This document shows positions 4,491 to 44,342 of a stretch of 44,342 bases of DNA, in pieces. How positions within the stretch are numbered: position 1 is the stretch's first letter; the number at the start of each line of letters is the position of its first letter. A program made the position numbers and the translations under genes. The stretch is taken from the IMG/VR virus record IMGVR_UViG_3300044946_000030, positions 1 through 44,342 of that record; one strand, written 5' to 3'. The DNA comes from a virus. The notes beneath the pieces are model-generated. The model did no database searches and had not been told where the DNA came from. It was given only the letters and a program-made list of their open reading frames with translations.

Positions 4491-5246
4491 ATGTCGGTTA
4501 CTACAACTGGCAATACAATAGTTGCCGATGTTCGCGCCGAAATAATTGAACCAAGTCCCACGTTTTTCTCAAACGCGAGGATGTTGTATTTGATTAACCA
4601 GGCGCAGAATGATTATGTCGCTAAAACAAGAGTTCTTCAAAATATTGCTTATACCTCTTCGGTATTAGGCCAAGCGGATTATCCGATGCCTACGAACTGG
4701 TTAGGCAGCGAGAAGATATTTTATAACGCCGTAACTTTGAATAATCTTCCTAATTGGCGTCCTCTTGGTGCAACGAACATTGAGAAAATGGGGCAAGAGT
4801 ATCCAAATTTTCTGTCAACAGATCCTTCAACCCTGAGTTATCCGTTTCGTTATTGGGTTATTGGGCAGACGATGTATATCTATCCCACTCCGGTTACAAA
4901 CGGCACAAACGATTTATTTTTGTTTTATGAATCCTGGCCCACTCAGTTATCTACTTTGAACAGCCTATTGTCAATTGATGACAGTCTTTATCCCGGTGTT
5001 CGCGCCTATGTACTTTCAAAATTATGGAAAGCTGACGGGGAAGATGCTAAGGCTAAAGATGAAATGAGTGGCAATATGCAAAACCCCGGTAACTATGAAA
5101 ACATGGTGAAGGAAGGTTTCAAATGGAAGAACAAACGGATTCTTGATGGTCGTTGGAAGATCGATATCGAATCTTATTTGCCTTTCAGCTATTCAACTTT
5201 TACTTCCGGTACAACAACCGGGGGAATCAATCCTCTGTCGCTTTAA
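4491..5246 (+). CDS. head-tail adaptor-like protein
   Basis: A 251-residue protein whose N-terminal third reads as a phage adaptor: IVADVRAEIIEPSPTFFSNA followed by RMLYLINQAQNDYV, a helical region typical of podovirus head-tail connectors. A beta-rich middle with YPMPTNWLGSEKIFYN and TMYIYPTP follows, then a C-terminal helix bundle. It would form a ring under the portal and join head to tail. The start ATG 4491 is three bases after the previous stop, indicating translational coupling. Family assignment rests on motif pattern, not on a search. Confidence 0.65.
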   Translation: MSVTTTGNTIVADVRAEIIEPSPTFFSNARMLYLINQAQNDYVAKTRVLQNIAYTSSVLGQADYPMPTNWLGSEKIFYNAVTLNNLPNWRPLGATNIEKMGQEYPNFLSTDPSTLSYPFRYWVIGQTMYIYPTPVTNGTNDLFLFYESWPTQLSTLNSLLSIDDSLYPGVRAYVLSKLWKADGEDAKAKDEMSGNMQNPGNYENMVKEGFKWKNKRILDGRWKIDIESYLPFSYSTFTSGTTTGGINPLSL

Positions 5247-5252
5247 GGATTT

Positions 5253-5732
5253 ATGGGCTGGCCTACATCAGTTTCTAACGCATCGAATCTTTTTACAGCG
5301 GTCAATATTCTTCAGACGCAACTAACCGTTGCGATGACTTCAAATTCACCCGCTGTTATCACTGTGGCGAATACGGTCGGATTTCCTATAGTTGGTGCAT
5401 TGAATATAGATCAAGAGGTTATTTTCTATACAGGAATTTCGGGTAATACTTTTACTGGTTTAACTCGTGGTGCCGATAATACCAATGTGAGTTTTCATGC
5501 AATCGGTGCCAACGTCAATGCAGCAATTGTTGCCTATCACATTAATGCTTTAAATGCAGAAGTTATAGCTATCGAGAAATATCTGAATACAGCAAGATCA
5601 ACAGACATCTATACAATTGGAACATATACCTCGACGATGACTTTAAATCCGGCTTCAACGACTCTCAATACTGTGGCTAATGTTTTGGCTACTCTTTTAA
5701 ATAGTTTGACAAATGCCGGAATAATTCAGTGA
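5253..5732 (+). CDS. tail or fibre attachment protein
   Basis: A 159-residue protein with a small beta domain carrying INxDQEVIFYTGISGNTFTG-like text and TRGADNTNVSFHAIGA. This pattern recurs in phage tail and fibre proteins where strands wrap a trimeric or hexameric hub. The C-terminal half is helical and Ala/Leu-rich. It shares four bases with the following fibre gene (stop TGA inside GTGA). It could be the virion-side anchor of that fibre. Confidence 0.5.
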   Translation: MGWPTSVSNASNLFTAVNILQTQLTVAMTSNSPAVITVANTVGFPIVGALNIDQEVIFYTGISGNTFTGLTRGADNTNVSFHAIGANVNAAIVAYHINALNAEVIAIEKYLNTARSTDIYTIGTYTSTMTLNPASTTLNTVANVLATLLNSLTNAGIIQ

Positions 5733-8700
5733 AGAAAAAACTTCTTTCATTAATCCTTTTGCTCCTTCCCGTCACAGCTTTGGCTGATACGCTTGGAACA
5801 CTGAACAACAATGCTTCGGTAGAGCTTAGCACTCAAGCGGTTCAAATTCAGAGCAGCCTTCAAACCGGAGCTACGGTCTTTATTACAAGTGGAACCGTCG
5901 CAAGTTATCTTGCAGATCAGGCTTTAACGAACGGTGGATGTGTTCAGGCTGGTCCGAATGGTCAGTTTACTACTCCTACGTCCAATGCTTGCGGAACAGG
6001 ATCAGGTGGTGGTGCCGCATCAACCACTACAGCCTATGGTTTACTTTATACTTCTAGTTCAAGCGTCACTCAGACATTGATAAGCACAACTCCTGTCGTT
6101 CTAAATGCTTTTCAGAATACAGGTGCTTCGTATCAAACCGTTCTCAGTACAACGGCATCGAGTATTATTGTCAGCACAGGGGGAGTGTTCTATGTTTGGG
6201 CGAATATTCTTTCTACCGGAACAGGAACCTACAATCAATATTTTTCTATAGGGATAAACGGAAGTCCTACCGCCTATACCTGTCAGGATACACCTTCTGC
6301 GCGTTGTGTGTTGACTTCGATTGTTAGTTTGTCTGCCGGTTCGACGGTTCAGATTTACACAAATACGAGTTTGGTCGGGCAAGCTACTTGCACGATAACC
6401 GATGCTCAATTTGGATTGACGACTATTACCGGACCTACAGGACCACAAGGATTATCGAATTTTATTTCCGCTGGTTATGCTATTTCCGCAGTTGCTAATG
6501 GATCAACAACGACGGTTTCTTTGCTCGGTAACTCGACAAACTATATACAAAATTCCAGTAGCTTACAGTCCAACACTACTTTTTATGTTTCGAGTGCTGC
6601 TGTTAAAGGTCCGTTTATGGTTATCGGATCGACGAATGCCACTCCCACTACGATAGAAGGACCATTCGGTTCATCGACAACTGCTGGTCCGAATAATTAT
6701 TCGTTCATTCTTGGCAACTATGGATCTCATGCGGCTGGAACAGATGTTTCTTTGGGTTTATATCAATATAGCAGTTTTGGTGGTGGTACTTGGACGCCTT
6801 TCGGTTCTATAGAGTGTATTAAACAAAGCGATAACTATTTAAACGATGGATCAGATTTGGTCTTTCGCGTTTATAGTGGTGGGGCTGGAAGTACAGAGGC
6901 TCTTAGACTCTCTGGTTCAACGACTAATGGTGTTGGTCCAACAGTTAAGCTAGGGGGTGCGCTCTATACAAACGGATCTTCCGGTACTTTTGGTTATGTC
7001 TTGCAATCTAATGGGGCGAATGTTGCGCCTTCGTGGGTAGTGAATTCGCCGGGGTCAAATAATTTTATTCTTCTCCAAAGCACTCTCCAAGCTGGAGCTA
7101 CTTTTTATGTTTCCAGCGCTGCTGTTGCCGGTAATTTAACCATCGGGACATTAACGGGAAACACCTGGAATGGTACATTAGGAACACTCACACCTACGAT
7201 AAGCATGTTAGCCGAAGGTGTTACTATGAGTGATGGCGGAGCAACATTTCTTCAAAGTCAAGTAGGAAGTGGCAATGTTACGACATTGGCTTCTGCCGGT
7301 GGTGGTACTGTATTAACCTTGAATGAAAACTCACCTTCAACCTTTAATGGTAGCAGTAGTTTAGGTTTATATATGGTCAATCAACCTTTTGGTTGGTCCG
7401 ATAGCAATGCTAAAGTTTCTTATATACAAAATCCGACAGGATATATTTCAACGTACACATTAACGCTTCCTATACAACTCGGTACACCTGGACAGGTTTT
7501 AGAACAGATTAATTCAACGGGAACTCTATCGTTTGTTAGTTCGGCTGGAGCAGGAGTTTCTTTCGCCACAGGAACTATTTTACAAACACCGTCAGCCCCC
7601 GCTGGTGGAACTTGGCTTGCTTGTGACGGTAGTGTTCAGTCTACCGCTACTTATCCCGCACTTTATAATGCAATTGGTCAGACGTATATGAACTTTACGT
7701 CAACTTTTCCTGCATCTACAAATACCGTATCTGCGGCATCAATTCCTGTTTGGTTGGGCAATTCAAATTGGTTAGTTACGTCGGCTAACGGTACAGCAGT
7801 CTGGTGGGGATCTACAGGTACTTGGCTAACACAGACGAGTGTTGGTTCGGGTTTAAGTGCCTTGAGTGTAAATTTAGCCGTAGGATATGCGTTAGGATAT
7901 ACCAACACAACCGCTGCTGCTCTTACTGCGTCATTGACGAGCATCAATTTTGTCGGCAACACACTTCCTTCTGCGCCCGGATCATTTCAAAAAGTAATTG
8001 CTCCAGGGAACGCTAATACGGCTGTTTTCCTGTATTGCGTAACTGGCTCTCAAACGGTTTACACGATGACAAAGGGCGGAACTACTTGGGCTAGTACCGC
8101 CAGTGCATTGCCAAAAACCGGAACACCTGGAGCTATTTGGTGGGATGGGACTGATTGGAATATCTTAATGACCAATGGCGTACTAGAGCAAACTTCACTC
8201 GTTTCTGGAACGGCCAATTGGACAGTCGCTTATTCGTCAACTTCTATTCTTGCGCTCTATGCGCCTATCATGAACAATCAACAAAATGCCGAGGTGGGCT
8301 CGTTTGACAATGCACCCAACGTGGTATTAGCACCGTTTTCTTCGGGTAACTCTATTGTTTCCAGTAATTCTCTTTTAACGTCCACACAATATCCACAGAG
8401 TTTTGTTACTTATCAATCACCCACATCTGTTTTTTGGAACGGATATGTCTATGTGGCGATTGTTGCATTTAATAGTTCTACAGCCGTTAATAACGTAGTT
8501 CCCCAATATATCAATTCGACGATTTATACTTCTATAGACGGTAAAGTATGGAGAAATGCAACCACAGGAATTTTCATGTGTCCTGCTGCTCAGTTTACAG
8601 GAACGACCACAAACACGCTTACGGCTAATACTACCACAGGGGCTTTTTTAATGCTCGGAGAAAATGCCGGTGGTCCTAGCCCTGGCGGTACAAACTTGAT

Positions 8701-8779
8701 GATTGTTTTTCCTACGGTTAATCCCGCATCGCAATTCAATTTACCCTTGCAGCCCGGTTATTATATTCGCGCATTATGA
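5729..8779 (+). CDS. large tail fibre/adhesin with Sec signal peptide and collar domain
   Basis: A 1016-residue protein starting at GTG 5729, overlapping the previous stop by four bases. Residues 1-19 form a textbook Sec signal peptide (KKK, a Leu-rich core, TALAD cleavage site), which is unusual for a virion fibre. The body is Ser/Thr/Gly beta-rich with three copies of a LQxGATFYVSSAAV-like unit near residues 42, 273 and 447. Around residues 611-655 is a phage tail-collar-like segment (FATGTILQ..PAGGTWLACDG..YPALYNAIG). The C-terminal 350 residues contain repeated WDGTDWN/SIDGKVWRN text reminiscent of Asp-box beta-propellers, a likely receptor-binding tip. A collagen-like GPTGPQG appears near 237. 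Confidence 0.7.
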   Translation: MKKKLLSLILLLLPVTALADTLGTLNNNASVELSTQAVQIQSSLQTGATVFITSGTVASYLADQALTNGGCVQAGPNGQFTTPTSNACGTGSGGGAASTTTAYGLLYTSSSSVTQTLISTTPVVLNAFQNTGASYQTVLSTTASSIIVSTGGVFYVWANILSTGTGTYNQYFSIGINGSPTAYTCQDTPSARCVLTSIVSLSAGSTVQIYTNTSLVGQATCTITDAQFGLTTITGPTGPQGLSNFISAGYAISAVANGSTTTVSLLGNSTNYIQNSSSLQSNTTFYVSSAAVKGPFMVIGSTNATPTTIEGPFGSSTTAGPNNYSFILGNYGSHAAGTDVSLGLYQYSSFGGGTWTPFGSIECIKQSDNYLNDGSDLVFRVYSGGAGSTEALRLSGSTTNGVGPTVKLGGALYTNGSSGTFGYVLQSNGANVAPSWVVNSPGSNNFILLQSTLQAGATFYVSSAAVAGNLTIGTLTGNTWNGTLGTLTPTISMLAEGVTMSDGGATFLQSQVGSGNVTTLASAGGGTVLTLNENSPSTFNGSSSLGLYMVNQPFGWSDSNAKVSYIQNPTGYISTYTLTLPIQLGTPGQVLEQINSTGTLSFVSSAGAGVSFATGTILQTPSAPAGGTWLACDGSVQSTATYPALYNAIGQTYMNFTSTFPASTNTVSAASIPVWLGNSNWLVTSANGTAVWWGSTGTWLTQTSVGSGLSALSVNLAVGYALGYTNTTAAALTASLTSINFVGNTLPSAPGSFQKVIAPGNANTAVFLYCVTGSQTVYTMTKGGTTWASTASALPKTGTPGAIWWDGTDWNILMTNGVLEQTSLVSGTANWTVAYSSTSILALYAPIMNNQQNAEVGSFDNAPNVVLAPFSSGNSIVSSNSLLTSTQYPQSFVTYQSPTSVFWNGYVYVAIVAFNSSTAVNNVVPQYINSTIYTSIDGKVWRNATTGIFMCPAAQFTGTTTNTLTANTTTGAFLMLGENAGGPSPGGTNLMIVFPTVNPASQFNLPLQPGYYIRAL

Positions 8780-9735
8780 AGAAATTAATTACTTTTTTTT
8801 CGTTGCTGCTTTTTGGAACTTTAGGATGGGCTGGCAGTCCAAAAAACTTTAGCCAAATTACGCTCGATAACGGTGTTTCAATCTCGACTAATCCTCCTTC
8901 AGGCGGAATGGCGGTTTCGTCGTCAATGACGGTGAACGGTGCGATTGTTGTAAACAGCGGTCCAGGTAATGCTTCTACTCTTGCGCTAACCATCGGTTCA
9001 AATCTGACATCTGGTTTTTTCGTTCCTGCAACGGGTTTAATAAGCCTTGCACTAAATGGTGGGCAAGTTATTGCTTTTACGACAGCAGGATTTGTCTGTA
9101 ATGGTGTGGCTTATTCTACGTTCACTCCTACGATTCATACTTTTCTTTCGGGCAGCGGAACATATACAACGCCAACAGGAGTTCAATGGATAAAAGTTAG
9201 AGCCTGTGGTGGCGGAGGCGGAGGAGGAGGTTCAGGAACCTCTGCAACACTTGGAGGTATTGGTGGTGCTACATTCTTTGGTTTGAATTTAACTACGGCT
9301 ACAGCCGGTAATGGTGGATCGACAGGAACACAAACAGCCGGTGCGGGAATTTCAGTTGGAGGCGATCTTAATTGGGGAAGCCCATTAGCTCAAGGTGCTG
9401 GCGCAAGTTTAGCCGATAATGGTGGATCTCCCGGTACGGGTTCGGTTCTTTTTAATGGTGCTGGAACCGCTGGAATTGCGGCAGTTGTAGGAAGTACAGC
9501 CACGGTTAATACAGGAGGCGGAGGAGGAGGCGGAGGCGGAGGAACTGGTCTGGCTTTTGGTGGAGGAGGAACAGCCGGTGGTTGTTTTGAGAAAACCATA
9601 GGTGCGCCAGCGGCATCATATCCTTATACCGTAGGTGCCGGTGGAACAGCAGGATTGCCAGGATCTACAGGTTTTGCCGGTGGTGGTGGGGCTGCTGGGA
9701 TTATTATTGTGGAAGAACATTATTCTGGTGGCTAA
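8776..9735 (+). CDS. glycine-rich adhesin with Sec signal peptide
   Basis: A 319-residue protein overlapping the preceding gene by ATGA. It has a signal peptide (MKKLITFFSLLLFGTLGWAG), a beta-rich N-terminal domain, then from about residue 122 a glycine-rich domain opening with TFLSGSGTYTTPTGVQWIKV and containing several runs of 8-10 glycines. It closes with GGAAGIIIVEEHY. This layout matches Gly-rich phage receptor-binding domains of the polyglycine-II sandwich type (as in S16-like gp38 adhesins). It probably acts with the preceding fibre at the cell surface or fibre tip. Why a virion adhesin should carry a signal peptide is unexplained. Confidence 0.65.
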   Translation: MKKLITFFSLLLFGTLGWAGSPKNFSQITLDNGVSISTNPPSGGMAVSSSMTVNGAIVVNSGPGNASTLALTIGSNLTSGFFVPATGLISLALNGGQVIAFTTAGFVCNGVAYSTFTPTIHTFLSGSGTYTTPTGVQWIKVRACGGGGGGGGSGTSATLGGIGGATFFGLNLTTATAGNGGSTGTQTAGAGISVGGDLNWGSPLAQGAGASLADNGGSPGTGSVLFNGAGTAGIAAVVGSTATVNTGGGGGGGGGGTGLAFGGGGTAGGCFEKTIGAPAASYPYTVGAGGTAGLPGSTGFAGGGGAAGIIIVEEHYSGG

Positions 9736-9765
9736 TTTGAACAAGATTTTGAAGGAGAATGATTA

Positions 9766-10158
9766 ATGAAGATATTAAAAGTTGCAATGCTTTTCGCTGG
9801 ACTTAGTTTTGTTTATTGCATTGTAAATGCTCAAGAGTTTTATGTTCCACAAGTTTCCTCGAATACGCAGACTTCAACGAATGCTCAGATAGTTCTCTCA
9901 ACGCCTACTGTTGCTACATCCATAAATTGTATTCAGCATTTGACCGTTGAAAGTCCTAACTCTACTACCGTTGATATTCTTTCGTTGGGTACGACTATCT
10001 ATTCGATTGTCACTTCAACAGGAGTTCCATTTGACACACAATGGGGTGCCGGTACTGCGTTATGCGGAAACAAGGGGCAGCAAATGACGATTGACGACAC
10101 TGGTGGAGGGGCTTATACCATCAGCATAGAATCATTCGTTACTGCAAGCGGTTATTAA
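9766..10158 (+). CDS. small exported protein, fibre-cassette paralog 1
   Basis: A 130-residue protein with an N-terminal signal peptide (MKILKVAMLFAGLSFVYCIV, predicted cleavage after VNA). The mature part is a single beta-rich domain containing NCIQHL near residue 47 and WGAGTALCGNKGQQMTI near residue 95. The same two-cysteine pattern recurs in the next gene, so the two are paralogs and the cysteines could form a disulfide after export. AAGGAG precedes ATG 9766. No enzyme motif is visible. Confidence 0.6.
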   Translation: MKILKVAMLFAGLSFVYCIVNAQEFYVPQVSSNTQTSTNAQIVLSTPTVATSINCIQHLTVESPNSTTVDILSLGTTIYSIVTSTGVPFDTQWGAGTALCGNKGQQMTIDDTGGGAYTISIESFVTASGY

Positions 10159-10202
10159 ATTTGGTGAGCAATCACCAACAAAGAAACAAAGGAGAATCAA
10201 AG

Positions 10203-10784
10203 ATGAAAAAGTCACTAATGGCGGTTGGCCTATTGTTTGGCCTGTTGTTTACCGTCGGAAAATCCTATGCCGGGATTCCTCTCACTAAAGATGCTGGACT
10301 TGATGGTACTTACGGACATGCCATTAATTTTAATCTTGGTGTATATGGAAGCACCAATCCGGCTAGTTCCACTAGTGGATCGATTGTGTTTGCCGTTGTT
10401 CAGGCAACTTATCAAGTTTCAAACAACGGTGGAACCTCCAGCACAAACGGCGGAACTAATGGTGTGTCAGTTGCCACTGTTACTGCTCGTACTTGCTTGG
10501 ACTATATTGAAGCCTCTTTGTCCACTGGAACGACCATTTATATTCTTGATGGCGGAACGACTGATTATACGATTTATGGATCAAATCTTATCTTGTATAG
10601 CGGTCAAACTGCGGTTGAATATAAGCACGTTTGGAATGCTGGCGAACCTTTTTGCGGAACGACCGGAAATACTTTGACAATTAGTATTCCTGCTCCTACC
10701 GTGAATACGGCTACTAATGCTGTCAACGCGGAAGGTTATACGATCTTCTCTGGTGCCGGACAAACTTACAATTCAGGTCAGTAA
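10203..10784 (+). CDS. exported protein, fibre-cassette paralog 2
   Basis: A 193-residue protein. ATG 10203 is chosen because AAAGGAG precedes it and it yields a clean signal peptide (MKKSLMAVGLLFGLLFTVGK, then SYAG). The C-terminal domain contains TCLDYIEASLSTGTTIYIL and WNAGEPFCGTTGNTLTI, matching the cysteine pair and WxAGxxxCGxxG motif of the preceding protein. An additional Asn/Gly-rich segment precedes that domain. Function unknown; the context suggests a cell-surface or fibre-associated role. Confidence 0.6.
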   Translation: MKKSLMAVGLLFGLLFTVGKSYAGIPLTKDAGLDGTYGHAINFNLGVYGSTNPASSTSGSIVFAVVQATYQVSNNGGTSSTNGGTNGVSVATVTARTCLDYIEASLSTGTTIYILDGGTTDYTIYGSNLILYSGQTAVEYKHVWNAGEPFCGTTGNTLTISIPAPTVNTATNAVNAEGYTIFSGAGQTYNSGQ

Positions 10785-10812: not shown

Positions 10813-11076
10813 ATGAATCCGAGTGATGAAACAGAACTTGCTGTACTAAAAAAGTCTTTTGAGGACTATGTTGCAAACTCAAAAGAGTGGCGAACACAGT
10901 TCGACAGCAAAATGGAACGGATAGAGAGAAATATAGAAATTCTAATGTTCCCCCCCAAAGTTGTTGCGTGGATCATTCGTGCAATAGCTTGGACAGTTGG
11001 TGTAGGAAGTGTTGGTGCGTTGGCTTCTTATGAACTGTATCAAAAACTAAGAGGTATACCGCATCAAGGAAATTAA
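10813..11076 (+). CDS. coiled-coil plus single-TM protein, holin candidate
   Basis: An 87-residue protein with a charged N-terminal coiled coil (ELAVLKKSFEDYV..SKMERIERNIEIL) and one hydrophobic segment at about 50-73 (VVAWIIRAIAWTVGVGSVGA), followed by a short basic tail. This resembles XhlA-type holin-associated proteins. The next gene, one base away, encodes the endolysin, so a holin or pinholin role is the best guess. There are no signs of a dual start. Confidence 0.5.
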   Translation: MNPSDETELAVLKKSFEDYVANSKEWRTQFDSKMERIERNIEILMFPPKVVAWIIRAIAWTVGVGSVGALASYELYQKLRGIPHQGN

Positions 11077-11077
11077 G

Positions 11078-11428
11078 GTGGCTATAGTTCTTAAGTATTT
11101 TAAACCCGATGAAGTAGCGAATTTGGATGACAATCTTTGCCTCATGCTCGATAAAGCTAGAGGTTTGGGTAATGCTCCTTATGTGATTACTTCTGGTTTT
11201 CGTACTGCTGCTCAGAATGAAGCCCTAACAGAATCCGTTAAAGACTCGTCGCATTTAACGGGAAATGCTGTTGATTTAAAGTGTGACGATTCAACGAGTA
11301 GATTCCTAATGCTAAAGGATTTAATTCAGGTTGGTTTTAATCGAATTGGCGTTTATGAGAATCATATTCATGTTGATAATTCCCCTTCTCTACCTCCAAA
11401 TGTTTGTTGGTATGTGATGGGATCATAA
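11078..11428 (+). CDS. M15-type peptidase, endolysin
   Basis: A 116-residue protein starting at GTG 11078 after AAGGAA. It shows the M15 zinc peptidase signature: SGFRTAAQNEAL, then SSHLTGNAVDL (SxHxxGxAxD, His59 and Asp66 as ligands) and HIHVD (His98). Such single-domain enzymes cut D-Ala-containing peptide bonds in peptidoglycan stems and serve as phage endolysins. It has no signal peptide, so it would need the upstream holin-like protein for release. Confidence 0.82.
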   Translation: MAIVLKYFKPDEVANLDDNLCLMLDKARGLGNAPYVITSGFRTAAQNEALTESVKDSSHLTGNAVDLKCDDSTSRFLMLKDLIQVGFNRIGVYENHIHVDNSPSLPPNVCWYVMGS

Positions 11429-12172: not shown

Positions 12173-12375
12173 CAGTTTGGATAATAGATCCATTTCCGGT
12201 CGATCCTGAATTTCTCGATGTTCCTACACTGTTCGGGCTAAGACTGTTCGGGCAATATCTTTATGCCACCACTCCTAGTCTGAATGATATCTGGACCCAA
12301 GAGCCTCAGCAATCTGCTGTTTGGACTCCTTATGCTCCAAATCCCTCGACTGTTTGGGTTAATACTCCACAATGA
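12169..12375 (+). CDS. small Trp/Pro-rich protein
   Basis: A 68-residue protein starting at the ATGA overlap with the preceding gene and ending in an ATGA overlap with the following giant gene (12372). Composition is Pro/Trp/Tyr-rich, with repeated xxVWxxxP text (DIWTQEP, AVWTPYAP, TVWVNTP) at the C-terminus, suggesting a short repeated binding peptide. Tight coupling with the large tail gene suggests it contributes to the tail. Confidence 0.6.
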   Translation: MTVWIIDPFPVDPEFLDVPTLFGLRLFGQYLYATTPSLNDIWTQEPQQSAVWTPYAPNPSTVWVNTPQ

Positions 12376-15300
12376 ACAAACAAAAACTATCAATTCCTAC
12401 AGGAAAATTTGGGACTATAAAATCAAAATATCAGCCTGAATCCAATTCTGTCGGTAATGATGAATTCACGGCGGGAAGTAATAACTTTGTCACCAATAAT
12501 ACAGGTGCCATTGAAAAGCGTCCTGCTGATTCTATTTTTAGTGTTTCTCCTTTTACCAATCAGCCTACAGATCAGTACGAAGCCGTCTTTCCTAATGGTG
12601 TTCGTCATATGTTGGTGATGGATGGACCAACATTGAAATATTCTGCTGGAAATGGCTCCTATGCTTCAATGTCGCAAGTCTTTACCGCTGGTGCATCGAT
12701 GGAATATGCGCCTTATCAGGGAAGAATCTACCTAGATAACGGTATTGATGCGCCTATGGTGTATGATATTACTCCGAATTATGGTGGTGTGACTTATAGT
12801 GTGCCTCACTTAACGCTAATGGGGGCATTTGCTCCTACGACGGCACCAATAGTTCCGGCATCGGGAAGTTCTGGTGGTGCAATTCCTGACGGAACATATT
12901 TTTATACGATTACTTACGTTTATTACGGTGACGAAGAGTCCGATGCCGGGCTCACTTCAACCGCCGTAACCATTTCAAGTACGAATCAGACGGTTGCGCT
13001 CTCCAACATCCCCACTGGTGGAATCGGCGTTACGGCTAGAAATATTTATCGAGGAAATAATGGTTCTTTCCTGCTGGTGGGTACGCTTAATGACAATACC
13101 ACAACGACATTTACGGATACCGTCGCTGCCGGGACAACCCCTATTCCTACGCTAAATGGTTTGCCTCCCACGTTTAACTATATTACCAATGTTCTTTCTA
13201 GGAATTGGGTTATTTCTACTTCTACTCCGTATACGCTCTATTGGAGTTCTCCTGATTGGCCGGATATTTTCAATCCCAACAATTTTTTATTTTGCAATCC
13301 AAAGGACATTCTGAAAGGTGTTACTGCTTTCCAGAATTATCCTGTCGTTTTTAGCCAACATAGTTTCGGAACGATTCTTGGAAATACAGACAATACTTTT
13401 TATTACAACGAAATTAGTCCTACCGTAGGCTGTGTCGATAATCGTTCTATTCAAATTCGCACCATCGATGGTGTGCCTGTTCTTATTTGGCTATCGGATC
13501 ATGGTTACTATAAATTTGATGGAAGTTCAGCCACTTATATTTCCGATGATATTGAAGATTTGGTTAATTTTAATCTTCAACAAGTACAGTTTACAACCGG
13601 CGGTAACAGCCAAGCCACTGAAGCAGATTATGCTGGTGGTGTAAGCACACCCGGTATTAATTTAACCATAGATCCTAATGCCATTACGCTAAATAATCCT
13701 ACTCAGACATTTCAAATCGAGGCGGATTGGGAAAGCGGTGTTCTCACCAACATAGAAACGGCAGACGGTACCAATGAACTTAAAGTGCCGACAGCATTTA
13801 CTCCTGTCATTACAGCCGGTATGCTTGGCGGTCAGGCATTTATAGACGGAACAGATACTTATTTAGAATTGCCGGTTATTCCTCTCGAATCAGGACAAAC
13901 ACTAGGAAATCCTAGTGACTATACTGAATTTCGCACCAATACAGGTCCAGGAAGTCAGAACAACGGAACTTTAGGTTTTGCTTGGTCGATTACACCAACT
14001 TATACAGGGACTTTGGGAACGCTGACATTCAACTTTGGTGCTTCTGGTTTTTCTGGTGTGACGCAACCGACGTATACGGTTTATGTCTGGAATGATGCGC
14101 TTGGAAATCCTGGTGCCGCAATTTATACAGGATCAGCAACCAATATTAGCGGGAATACTCTTCCTAACAGCACTTCGGTAAGTGTCAATGTTGCTACATC
14201 TTTGACCGGAGGAACGAAATATTGGTTTGGCGTTCTAATCACATATCCAAGTTATGTAAATCCCATTATTAGTTTCAAGGAAGTTGAGTTTGATGGGGTA
14301 ACATCCCCAAAAGCCTATGACGGTGTTGGTGGTTCGTCTTTGTGGTCCTCTGTGAATACGGCCAATGGTGTTTTCGTGCCATACGGAATCCCTACAAACA
14401 CTGATACAGTTTCGTACACATATACACAAACGACAACATCAACGTCTGGAACATGGACCTCAAGTGTTTATGATAGCGGCAGCATTGGTTCGGCTATCGG
14501 ATATCAAGTTTCTTTAGCTGCTGTGGCCTATGCGACATTTACGACAGGAACGCTCTATTTAGACGCAAGCGATGATTCCACATTCAATACCGGAGTGACG
14601 ACACAGACATTCGTGCAGCCGGGAGAAACATCTTATAGTGTTACAACCACTAATTTGCGTTATTGGCGCTTTAGGTGGAGCATATCTTCAACAAATAATC
14701 TTTACACACCAACAGTCGGAATGCCGATTCTGACGTTTAATACAACTGGTACATGGATTTCACCAGCGATCAATTGCACTTCTGACGTAACGAGCTATGG
14801 CACACTAACTGCCGCCACCAACATTCCTTCAGGTACGAGCGTCGTCGTTACGGTCGCTACGAGTGCTGATGGAGTCACTTATTCCACTTATGGTCCATTC
14901 AGTAGTGCCGTGGTGCAGCCTTTTATCAAGGTTCAGATTGTTCTCGCAACGAATGCCGGTAATACCGTCACTCCTTACGTGTCTAGTCTGATTTTAACTT
15001 GGAATCTCACCAGCACTTTCACTAGCAGCATAATTAATGTCGGTCAAGTTCCTGCCGGATGGGGGATATTTCAAGACGACACTATGCTAAATGGTGGTAC
15101 GGCTCAATTCTATTTCCGTAGTGCAAGTACGTTTTTAGGAATGTCATCGGCTACATATTATGCCGTTTCAAATGGTTCATTTCCTTCCAGTAATGTTCTC
15201 CCTCTCCAATATTGTCAATGGAAAATAGTCTTTACGGCCAGTGTTAATGCTGTTCCCGTTGTTTCCGGTGTAACCGTTAATTGGTTTATCGGAAATAACA

Positions 15301-15920
15301 CCACACCAATAAGAACTGCTTCTCTATTTTACAACAAGACATATTATTGTTCAGCGGCAACATTAGGCAGCAGCACAAACAATGTTGTTGTTTCGTGGGA
15401 CTATGAGAATAAATGGAGAGTTTGGTATGGAGTTACCATCAATGCGATGGGACTATTTTTCAATCAGCCTTTCTATTCCGATGCTACAAGAAATAATGTC
15501 TATCAGTGGTTGATTCCTCTTCCTTCTAATGGTTCTGGACCATCTGTAATGATGGACGTTCGCACGAAAGCCTTTGATTTATCGAACATAAATGTTCTTA
15601 AAAATGTTCGTAGCTTGAGAATAACGGGATTGAATACGGGTACGACTATTCACGCTTATTATTCACCTGACCGTGGTGTGACTTTCGTAGAGATGTTGAA
15701 TGTTGATGGAGCATTGGGTTACACCACTTCTTTGACAGGAACTAAATTCAGCCAATATTTCGTTCCCGATTATTCGGGGCTTATTTCTGGTAATGCTCTT
15801 GTTTCAGGAAGCACAGTGATGTTTAGAGTGGTGAGCAGCGATAGTTATCCTTGCACTATCATCGGAATGGAACCTGTTATGTATGTTAGAAGCGGAAAAT
15901 ATTTGGAAGTTCAAGATTAA
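12372..15920 (+). CDS. giant tail protein, probable tail nozzle/hub
   Basis: An 1182-residue beta-rich protein without a signal peptide. The N-terminus reads DEFTAGSNNFVTNNTGAIEK followed by RPADSIF, similar to podovirus tail nozzle proteins where an acidic-aromatic strand precedes the statement GxLxKRPG. The next 350 residues suggest a beta-propeller (repeats of YxxxxLYWSSPDWPD type). The middle contains jelly-roll-like TYTVYVWNDALGNPGAAIYT, and the C-terminal third again resembles propeller blades. It likely forms the distal tail tube/needle. Four-base overlap with the upstream small gene indicates coupling. Confidence 0.6.
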   Translation: MNKQKLSIPTGKFGTIKSKYQPESNSVGNDEFTAGSNNFVTNNTGAIEKRPADSIFSVSPFTNQPTDQYEAVFPNGVRHMLVMDGPTLKYSAGNGSYASMSQVFTAGASMEYAPYQGRIYLDNGIDAPMVYDITPNYGGVTYSVPHLTLMGAFAPTTAPIVPASGSSGGAIPDGTYFYTITYVYYGDEESDAGLTSTAVTISSTNQTVALSNIPTGGIGVTARNIYRGNNGSFLLVGTLNDNTTTTFTDTVAAGTTPIPTLNGLPPTFNYITNVLSRNWVISTSTPYTLYWSSPDWPDIFNPNNFLFCNPKDILKGVTAFQNYPVVFSQHSFGTILGNTDNTFYYNEISPTVGCVDNRSIQIRTIDGVPVLIWLSDHGYYKFDGSSATYISDDIEDLVNFNLQQVQFTTGGNSQATEADYAGGVSTPGINLTIDPNAITLNNPTQTFQIEADWESGVLTNIETADGTNELKVPTAFTPVITAGMLGGQAFIDGTDTYLELPVIPLESGQTLGNPSDYTEFRTNTGPGSQNNGTLGFAWSITPTYTGTLGTLTFNFGASGFSGVTQPTYTVYVWNDALGNPGAAIYTGSATNISGNTLPNSTSVSVNVATSLTGGTKYWFGVLITYPSYVNPIISFKEVEFDGVTSPKAYDGVGGSSLWSSVNTANGVFVPYGIPTNTDTVSYTYTQTTTSTSGTWTSSVYDSGSIGSAIGYQVSLAAVAYATFTTGTLYLDASDDSTFNTGVTTQTFVQPGETSYSVTTTNLRYWRFRWSISSTNNLYTPTVGMPILTFNTTGTWISPAINCTSDVTSYGTLTAATNIPSGTSVVVTVATSADGVTYSTYGPFSSAVVQPFIKVQIVLATNAGNTVTPYVSSLILTWNLTSTFTSSIINVGQVPAGWGIFQDDTMLNGGTAQFYFRSASTFLGMSSATYYAVSNGSFPSSNVLPLQYCQWKIVFTASVNAVPVVSGVTVNWFIGNNTTPIRTASLFYNKTYYCSAATLGSSTNNVVVSWDYENKWRVWYGVTINAMGLFFNQPFYSDATRNNVYQWLIPLPSNGSGPSVMMDVRTKAFDLSNINVLKNVRSLRITGLNTGTTIHAYYSPDRGVTFVEMLNVDGALGYTTSLTGTKFSQYFVPDYSGLISGNALVSGSTVMFRVVSSDSYPCTIIGMEPVMYVRSGKYLEVQD

Positions 15921-43826: not shown

Positions 43827-44342
43827 CTATCCCTTGTAATCTATTGCTTCCTGTTTTGTTATAAAAAAGTGAATACCGTTAGAACATTCGACGAATGGCG
43901 ATGGATCATAGCTATCAGGCTTGATAAATTTTCCTACGGTATAAATCGCTTTATCGGAATGGATACCAATACCAGATTTAACCTTTTTGCCTTTATCGTT
44001 TTCGATTGACAGTACCCTTGCGTATTCTGCCCGACACTTGCGCGATGAATACGCATTGACCCGTTTCGCTTTTTGTGGGATTTTGAGTGTAGCGATTAAG
44101 TTATCTTTGAGTTTTTTGTATCCGATGATATCTCCCTCTGATACAATCACCAGTGGGGAATGGTCAAAGTTTTTTGCTTTTGACAAATTGCTACGGGACA
44201 AATTGCTATAGGACAAATTGCTACGGGACAAATTGCTACGGGACAAATTGCTACGGGACAAATTGCTACCGGACAAATTGCTACGGGACAAATTGCTACC
44301 GGACAAATTGCTATAGGACAAATTGCTATAGGACAAATTGCT
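43827..44342 (-). CDS. pentapeptide-repeat protein with DUF5758-like tail, 5' end outside window
   Basis: The frame is open to the right edge, so the N-terminus is missing. At least ten NLSRS/NLSYS/NLSGS pentapeptides in a row form the visible start, predicted to fold as a right-handed four-sided beta-helix. The C-terminal ~115 residues include SEGDIIGYKKLKDNLIATLK, SSRKCRAEYARVLSI and FVECSNGIHFFITKQEAIDY, a tail found in phage and bacterial pentapeptide proteins (DUF5758-like). Some pentapeptide proteins mimic DNA and act on gyrase, but no such role can be shown here. Confidence 0.75.
   Translation of the reverse strand, partial: SNLSYSNLSYSNLSGSNLSRSNLSGSNLSRSNLSRSNLSRSNLSYSNLSRSNLSKAKNFDHSPLVIVSEGDIIGYKKLKDNLIATLKIPQKAKRVNAYSSRKCRAEYARVLSIENDKGKKVKSGIGIHSDKAIYTVGKFIKPDSYDPSPFVECSNGIHFFITKQEAIDYKG
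44182..44342 (-). repeat. 15-bp tandem repeats coding for pentapeptides
   Basis: About eleven nearly identical 15-bp units of GACAAATTGCTACGG type run to the window end. Variation is limited to ctacgg, ctatag and ctaccg, so DNA identity is far above what the protein motif requires, showing recent expansion by slippage or recombination. Confidence 0.9.

Follow-up and report, generated by a model that had tools for sequence, protein, structure and literature searches.

Four consecutive late genes in the genome of an uncultured, podovirus-like phage encode fiber-cassette proteins that all begin with Sec-type signal peptides. The genome is IMG/VR virus record IMGVR_UViG_3300044946_000030, analyzed whole as a stretch of 44,342 nucleotides (hereafter, the window), in which the cassette (positions 5,729 to 10,784) is flanked by the adaptor block and the lysis genes. 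Tails and fibers of phages are normally made and attached in the cytoplasm. The explanation that we prefer, and to which we give an even chance, is that Sec exports outer virion parts of this phage and its relatives to the periplasm, where they are processed, and that they become attached to the heads at lysis.

Signal peptides of the fiber cassette

Signal peptides were called throughout with a heuristic rule of our own (a charged n-region, an h-region of 8–15 residues and an AXA-like cleavage site), and the contigs are uncultured and partly fragmentary. In the window, the rule called 7 of the 72 open reading frames (ORFs); shuffled N-termini gave an expectation of 1.0. Four of the 7, the cassette genes, stand in a row. 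When applied to reference phages, it called Lom, Rz, Bor and 2 other ORFs in lambda, 1 of the 33 ORFs of T7 and none of the 37 of Bacillus phage Page. Stenotrophomonas phage BUCT555 and Bradyrhizobium phage ppBjS10J-1, which are cultured relatives by their capsids, have no signal peptide on any of 31 structural genes, the fiber slot included, and none was called among the 47 genes of contigs recovered via adaptor similarity (L138-L141). For 5 rumen phages, SignalP 4.1 gave 0 to 2 signal peptides per genome (PMC5723332).

The starts of the first 2 cassette genes overlap the preceding stops by 4 bases (GTGA at 5,729, where the stop is that of the adjoining tail gene, and ATGA at 8,776) and strong ribosome-binding sites precede the other 2, so the N-termini do not stem from a wrong choice of start. 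For the fourth gene, the listed ORF starts at a TTG (10,161), and the preferred ATG at 10,203, which follows AAAGGAGAATCAAAG, yields a clean signal peptide. The positions, the starts and the signal peptide rule together confirm the initial annotation of this locus, which had described 4 successive genes with Sec-type signal peptides, a fiber with a collar domain, a polyglycine adhesin and 2 paralogous small proteins.

The first product has 3 copies of an LQxGATFYVSS repeat (LQSGATFYVSSGTV), the Collar domain, which was indeed recovered at residues 621–653 (PF07484, E = 2.9e-8, 34 bits against a curated cut-off of 24), and a long C-terminal part. This 1,016-residue fiber had no tblastn match in cultured phages and no match in PDB, and neither it nor the nozzle protein, used as whole-protein queries, had relatives among viral contigs or cultured phages. 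The second product is glycine-rich as annotated, but the term adhesin is only descriptive, the sole match being a weak one to a tail fiber assembly family (phrog_863, E = 2.2e-5). The paralogy of the 2 small proteins was upheld (phmmer E = 4e-6, both cysteines aligned). None of the 4 proteins had a Pfam match to the Lom/Ail or Bor families. AlphaFold models were of low confidence (predicted local distance difference test scores of 40 for the small proteins and 32 for the fiber C-terminus) and too poor for fold searches. Once the proteins with signal peptides are set aside, no recognizable fiber or spike gene is left in the window phage.

Fiber-slot genes of related phages

Relatives were selected with a 33-residue alignment of the repeat in 2 scans of viral contigs, signal peptides playing no part in the selection. 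The 19 other viral contigs so obtained have gene sets of podo-, sipho- and myo-like type and include several podovirus lineages, a siphovirus-like phage in which a tape measure gene is followed by tail proteins and then by a fiber with a signal peptide (G357), and one contig, G343, that carries a sheath-like gene and whose repeat-bearing gene is cut by the contig end. A signal peptide is present on the repeat-bearing gene wherever its start can be read, in 18 of 18 other contigs (the start in G344 being read from an internal ATG and missed by the automatic count), compared with 72 of 471 other late-strand genes of the same contigs. As the repeat was located irrespective of any signal peptide, this result is not circular. 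The repeat-bearing gene is often followed by further genes of the same kind, a typical cassette comprising 2–5 genes with signal peptides ahead of the lysis genes; in G345, 7 such genes stand in a row, out of 11 in total. The exported candidates include matches to tail spike (phrog_4636, 4e-19), tail fiber (phrog_1980, 5e-9) and virion structural families (phrog_6002, 5e-17; phrog_8510, 4.5e-16), and, beside the Collar domain of the window fiber, a K1-lyase_C domain in one protein (8e-23) and a Laminin_G_3 domain (8e-27).

A second search, meant to remove the bias of selection by the repeat, used as query the capsid protein of the lineage comprising G344, G346 and G350, and the repeat was absent from all 16 new contigs tested. 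One of these repeat-free contigs, G362, has 5 genes with signal peptides in a row in the fiber slot. In G371, the fiber-slot protein (1,053 residues; L207 16488-19646) has a hydrophobic N-terminus lacking basic residues, and the next gene has a signal peptide; the same protein contains a polysaccharide deacetylase domain (PF01522, 2e-7). Several glycosyltransferase-like genes, judged by eye, lie between the capsid and adaptor genes in G344, G346, G350, G351, G362, G364 and G374.

Immediately ahead of the adaptor gene, G344, G362, G363 and G365 encode a small protein with a signal peptide. Across these 4 phages, the signal peptides are 30% identical and the mature parts 65%, with 2 invariant cysteines. 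Such divergence next to a conserved mature part suggests selection for export and real signal peptides. It also bears on the notion that the hydrophobic N-terminus is an uncleaved anchor or an assembly tag within the virion, with no working signal peptide. Cleavage rests on prediction, and the host envelope might impose a structural role; however, nearly all members have the full n/h/c architecture and AXA-like sites, loss of sequence similarity with retention of the property is usual for cleaved signal peptides, and the N-terminal lengths and sequences are too varied for a common docking surface. We regard an uncleaved anchor as very improbable.

The repeat also provides a link to the host. 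A scan of 84,980 species genomes yielded 5 confirmed loci, all in groundwater metagenome-assembled genomes of Elusimicrobia, and a profile search found the repeat in 35 of 341 Elusimicrobiota genomes, in chromosomal secreted proteins that combine a signal peptide, a YQGRL-type module and LQSGATFYVSSGTV repeats. Judging by this shared repeat, the phages probably infect Elusimicrobiota; neither a prophage of the signal-peptide fiber group nor a CRISPR match was found. Chromosomal proteins of this make-up are encoded at L083, L086, L018 and L021, some in tandem, and one Elusimicrobia repeat protein (L020 59-2917) has a HINT/intein-like interruption (CVTGDTLI...NHPYLT). Since the 35-residue repeat is common to phage fibers and host secreted proteins, the fiber modules might have been captured from the host, with the signal peptide as a functionless passenger. 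The YQGRL-type module of the host proteins is, however, absent from the phage fibers, signal peptides are also seen on many repeat-free proteins, among them an adaptor, a nozzle and the conserved small protein, and their conservation under divergence argues for selection. Passive capture is therefore improbable in our assessment, if slightly less so than an uncleaved anchor.

Proposed export and late assembly of virion parts

Signal peptides reach beyond the fibers in one lineage. The SU10-type adaptor of G345 (MNLIKRTLLILMLCALSRPLVA followed by LDLG; L101 16977-17699) and its nozzle-like protein (MKKLLYAFFLTSLVVFATSA followed by AEFE; L102 200-2722) both have one, their starts being fixed by ATGA-type overlaps. 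The adaptors of G347 (L105 15430-16179) and G356 (L131 3456-4193) do likewise, so that such adaptors occur in 3 of the 11 contigs with a PF24175 match. The nozzle signal peptides of G347 and G356 look real and have ambiguous start codons; only the G345 nozzle was counted. A candidate on the G350 adaptor was rejected for its marginal score, internal start and ordinary N-terminus. In the same contigs, no signal peptide was called on the terminase, portal or capsid or on the ejection or internal virion proteins.

The main rival explanation is that the cassette proteins are not virion parts and are displayed or secreted by the infected cell or lysogen for receptor masking, phage exclusion or adhesion, and are thus Lom- or Bor-like in kind but fiber-shaped. 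Secretion of proteins with the same repeat by Elusimicrobiota is consistent with this, as are the tyrosine integrase of the window phage (PF00589, 1.6e-18) and the position of lambda lom directly after the tail fiber gene J. It fits poorly with the signal peptides on the G345 adaptor and nozzle, with the matches to tail spike, tail fiber and virion structural families, and with the many repeat-bearing phages that have no other fiber or spike candidate; moreover, the genes in question fill the slot that holds the fiber in cultured relatives. We consider surface display unlikely, albeit well ahead of the other alternatives, and pure adhesin display is possible for individual cassette members. 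The initial annotation had offered both readings. Assembly after lysis is favored, though unproven, because genes with signal peptides occupy the tail-fiber slot of several unrelated phages and genes without them occupy it in cultured relatives; masking, exclusion or adhesion is less favored, since a surface adhesin sits ill with a lineage that has signal peptides on its head-tail adaptor and, in one phage, also on its nozzle.

Under export followed by attachment at lysis, the cassette would supply the receptor-facing outer appendages, namely a long Collar fiber, a glycine-rich protein resembling a fiber tip and 2 small partners. Their signal peptides would carry them across the inner membrane of the Elusimicrobiota host, signal peptidase would trim them and folding would take place in the periplasm, where the conserved cysteine pairs could form disulfides. 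DNA-filled heads would be built apart, in the cytoplasm. On opening of the cell by the products of the neighboring lysis genes, heads and exported parts would mix and the appendages attach. The sequences show the signal peptides themselves, their upkeep despite divergence, the fiber-slot position, the fiber and virion domains and, via the common repeat, the connection with Elusimicrobiota; from these, we infer export, cleavage, disulfide formation and attachment at or after lysis alike. An even number of cysteines was found in 39 of 51 exported proteins with at least 2 cysteines and in 133 of 219 others (Fisher p = 0.04), a weakly positive result. Carried further, the proposal describes a two-compartment virion, with heads in the cytoplasm and fibers, decoration-like proteins and the adaptor and nozzle of one lineage in the periplasm, which would become whole only at lysis; we advance this fuller form tentatively, somewhat short of even confidence.

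Several observations weigh against assembly from exported parts. The cysteine content is not raised in proteins with signal peptides (9.3 per 1,000 in both sets). With the adaptor exported, packaged heads would, oddly, lack their normal stopper until lysis. Because host chromosomes encode secreted proteins with the repeat, the repeat by itself could be a mark of secretion. Finally, the initial annotation had named homologs devoid of signal peptides as a refutation of its proposal; the repeat-bearing set presents the opposite, but signal peptides are not universal: the capsid-selected G364 and G374 have proteins without them in the fiber slot, and the fibers of the Elusimicrobiota prophages L080, L168, L170 and L173, found via terminase or adaptor, lack them too. 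These prophages have ordinary fibers, were rejected as members of the signal-peptide fiber group and serve as contrast. Export is accordingly not obligatory, and within a single lineage it appears, from predicted signal peptides, frequent yet labile. Such lability fits the proposed assembly: with cytoplasm and periplasm merged, it would make no difference from which compartment a late-attaching part is drawn.

The model of tailed-phage assembly would change with an exception that recurs under selection in several phage lineages linked to a single host phylum, and two-compartment assembly, if true, would be a route of tailed-phage morphogenesis not described before. In the open-access literature, we found no report that treats tail fibers with signal peptides as a group, nor one on Elusimicrobiota phages of such a type. 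One paper takes the lack of a signal peptide as an argument that a protein is of phage, not bacterial-surface, origin (PMC6199706). For annotation practice, the implication is that exported proteins of fiber-like type, when met in metagenomes, may belong to virions. The group would also provide a way to study phages of Elusimicrobiota, a phylum that is almost uncultured, and it raises the question of what is gained by export, for example, disulfides, periplasmic modification or protection against premature binding.

Genomic setting and known systems

The features of the cassette and its surroundings are listed in Table 1. The endolysin assignment rests on a PF08291 match (E = 5.9e-10, positions 11,078–11,428), and the 87-residue protein is probably holin-like, as suggested by its one hydrophobic segment. 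Further genes encode ejection-type proteins, PolA and a primase, and the contig end carries a pentapeptide-repeat protein fused to DUF5758 (43,827–44,336; PF00805, 2.7e-22). The capsid protein is of the HK97 type and related to that of Bacillus phage Page. Its gene is in 2 pieces (602–886 and 1,472–2,176) that align to neighboring parts of the Page protein; the insert contains a LAGLIDADG-type ORF (PF00961, E = 0.0024) and scores 25 bits against the group I intron model RF00028 (E = 2.9e-4), under the gathering cut-off.

Table 1. Cassette genes and flanking features of the window (aa, amino acids; SP, signal peptide)
Feature	Position	Strand	Remarks
SU10-type head-tail adaptor, without SP	4491..5246	+	PF24175, E = 5.6e-14
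159-aa tail protein without SP, adjoining the fiber upstream	5253..5732	+	PHROG baseplate wedge and tail fiber families, best 9.6e-8
1016-aa fiber, Sec SP at residues 1-19	5729..8779	+	GTG start; N-terminus MKKKLLSLILLLLPVTALA then DTLG
Fiber signal peptide	5729..5785	+	predicted cleavage between ALA and DT
319-aa glycine-rich protein, Sec SP	8776..9735	+	MKKLITFFSLLLFGTLGWA then GSPK; predicted cleavage between GWA and GS
130-aa small protein, SP, two Cys in mature part	9766..10158	+	MKILKVAMLFAGLSFVYCIVNA then QEFY; predicted cleavage between VNA and QE
193-aa small protein, SP, same two Cys	10203..10784	+	MKKSLMAVGLLFGLLFTVGKSYA then GIPL; predicted cleavage between SYA and GI
Probable lysis genes: 87-aa holin-like protein and M15 peptidase endolysin	10813..11428	+	
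1182-aa nozzle-like tail protein without SP	12372..15920	+	aligns with the corresponding L017, L031 and L008 proteins

The window fiber resembles Collar-domain (PF07484) tail fibers in its Collar domain, length, repeat-rich make-up and late-operon site by tail and lysis genes, and it lies in the virion and tail gene block of a tailed phage, with the adaptor and a tail gene on one side and the endolysin and nozzle on the other. To our knowledge, however, Collar-domain fibers are cytoplasmic and lack signal peptides; the window fiber begins with one, and the control phages have none there. Bacillus phage Page, BUCT555 and ppBjS10J-1 share related capsids and a podovirus-type gene order, but not the signal peptides on structural genes. 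The secreted repeat proteins of Elusimicrobiota have the Sec signal peptide and the 35-residue repeat in common with the phage fibers and differ in their YQGRL-type module and chromosomal, non-phage neighborhood, the phage proteins lacking the module and residing in virion operons. Lom and Bor of lambda are likewise phage products with signal peptides, lom being located among tail-fiber genes, but they are single outer-membrane proteins that form no large fiber-like cassette and match no virion family. Virion proteins made with signal peptides are known from filamentous phages (Inovirus), whose coat proteins are inserted through Sec/YidC. Those phages leave the cell by extrusion, with no lysis, and lack terminase, portal and tail, whereas the window phage has an HK97-type capsid and lysis genes, and the related contigs encode terminase and portal.

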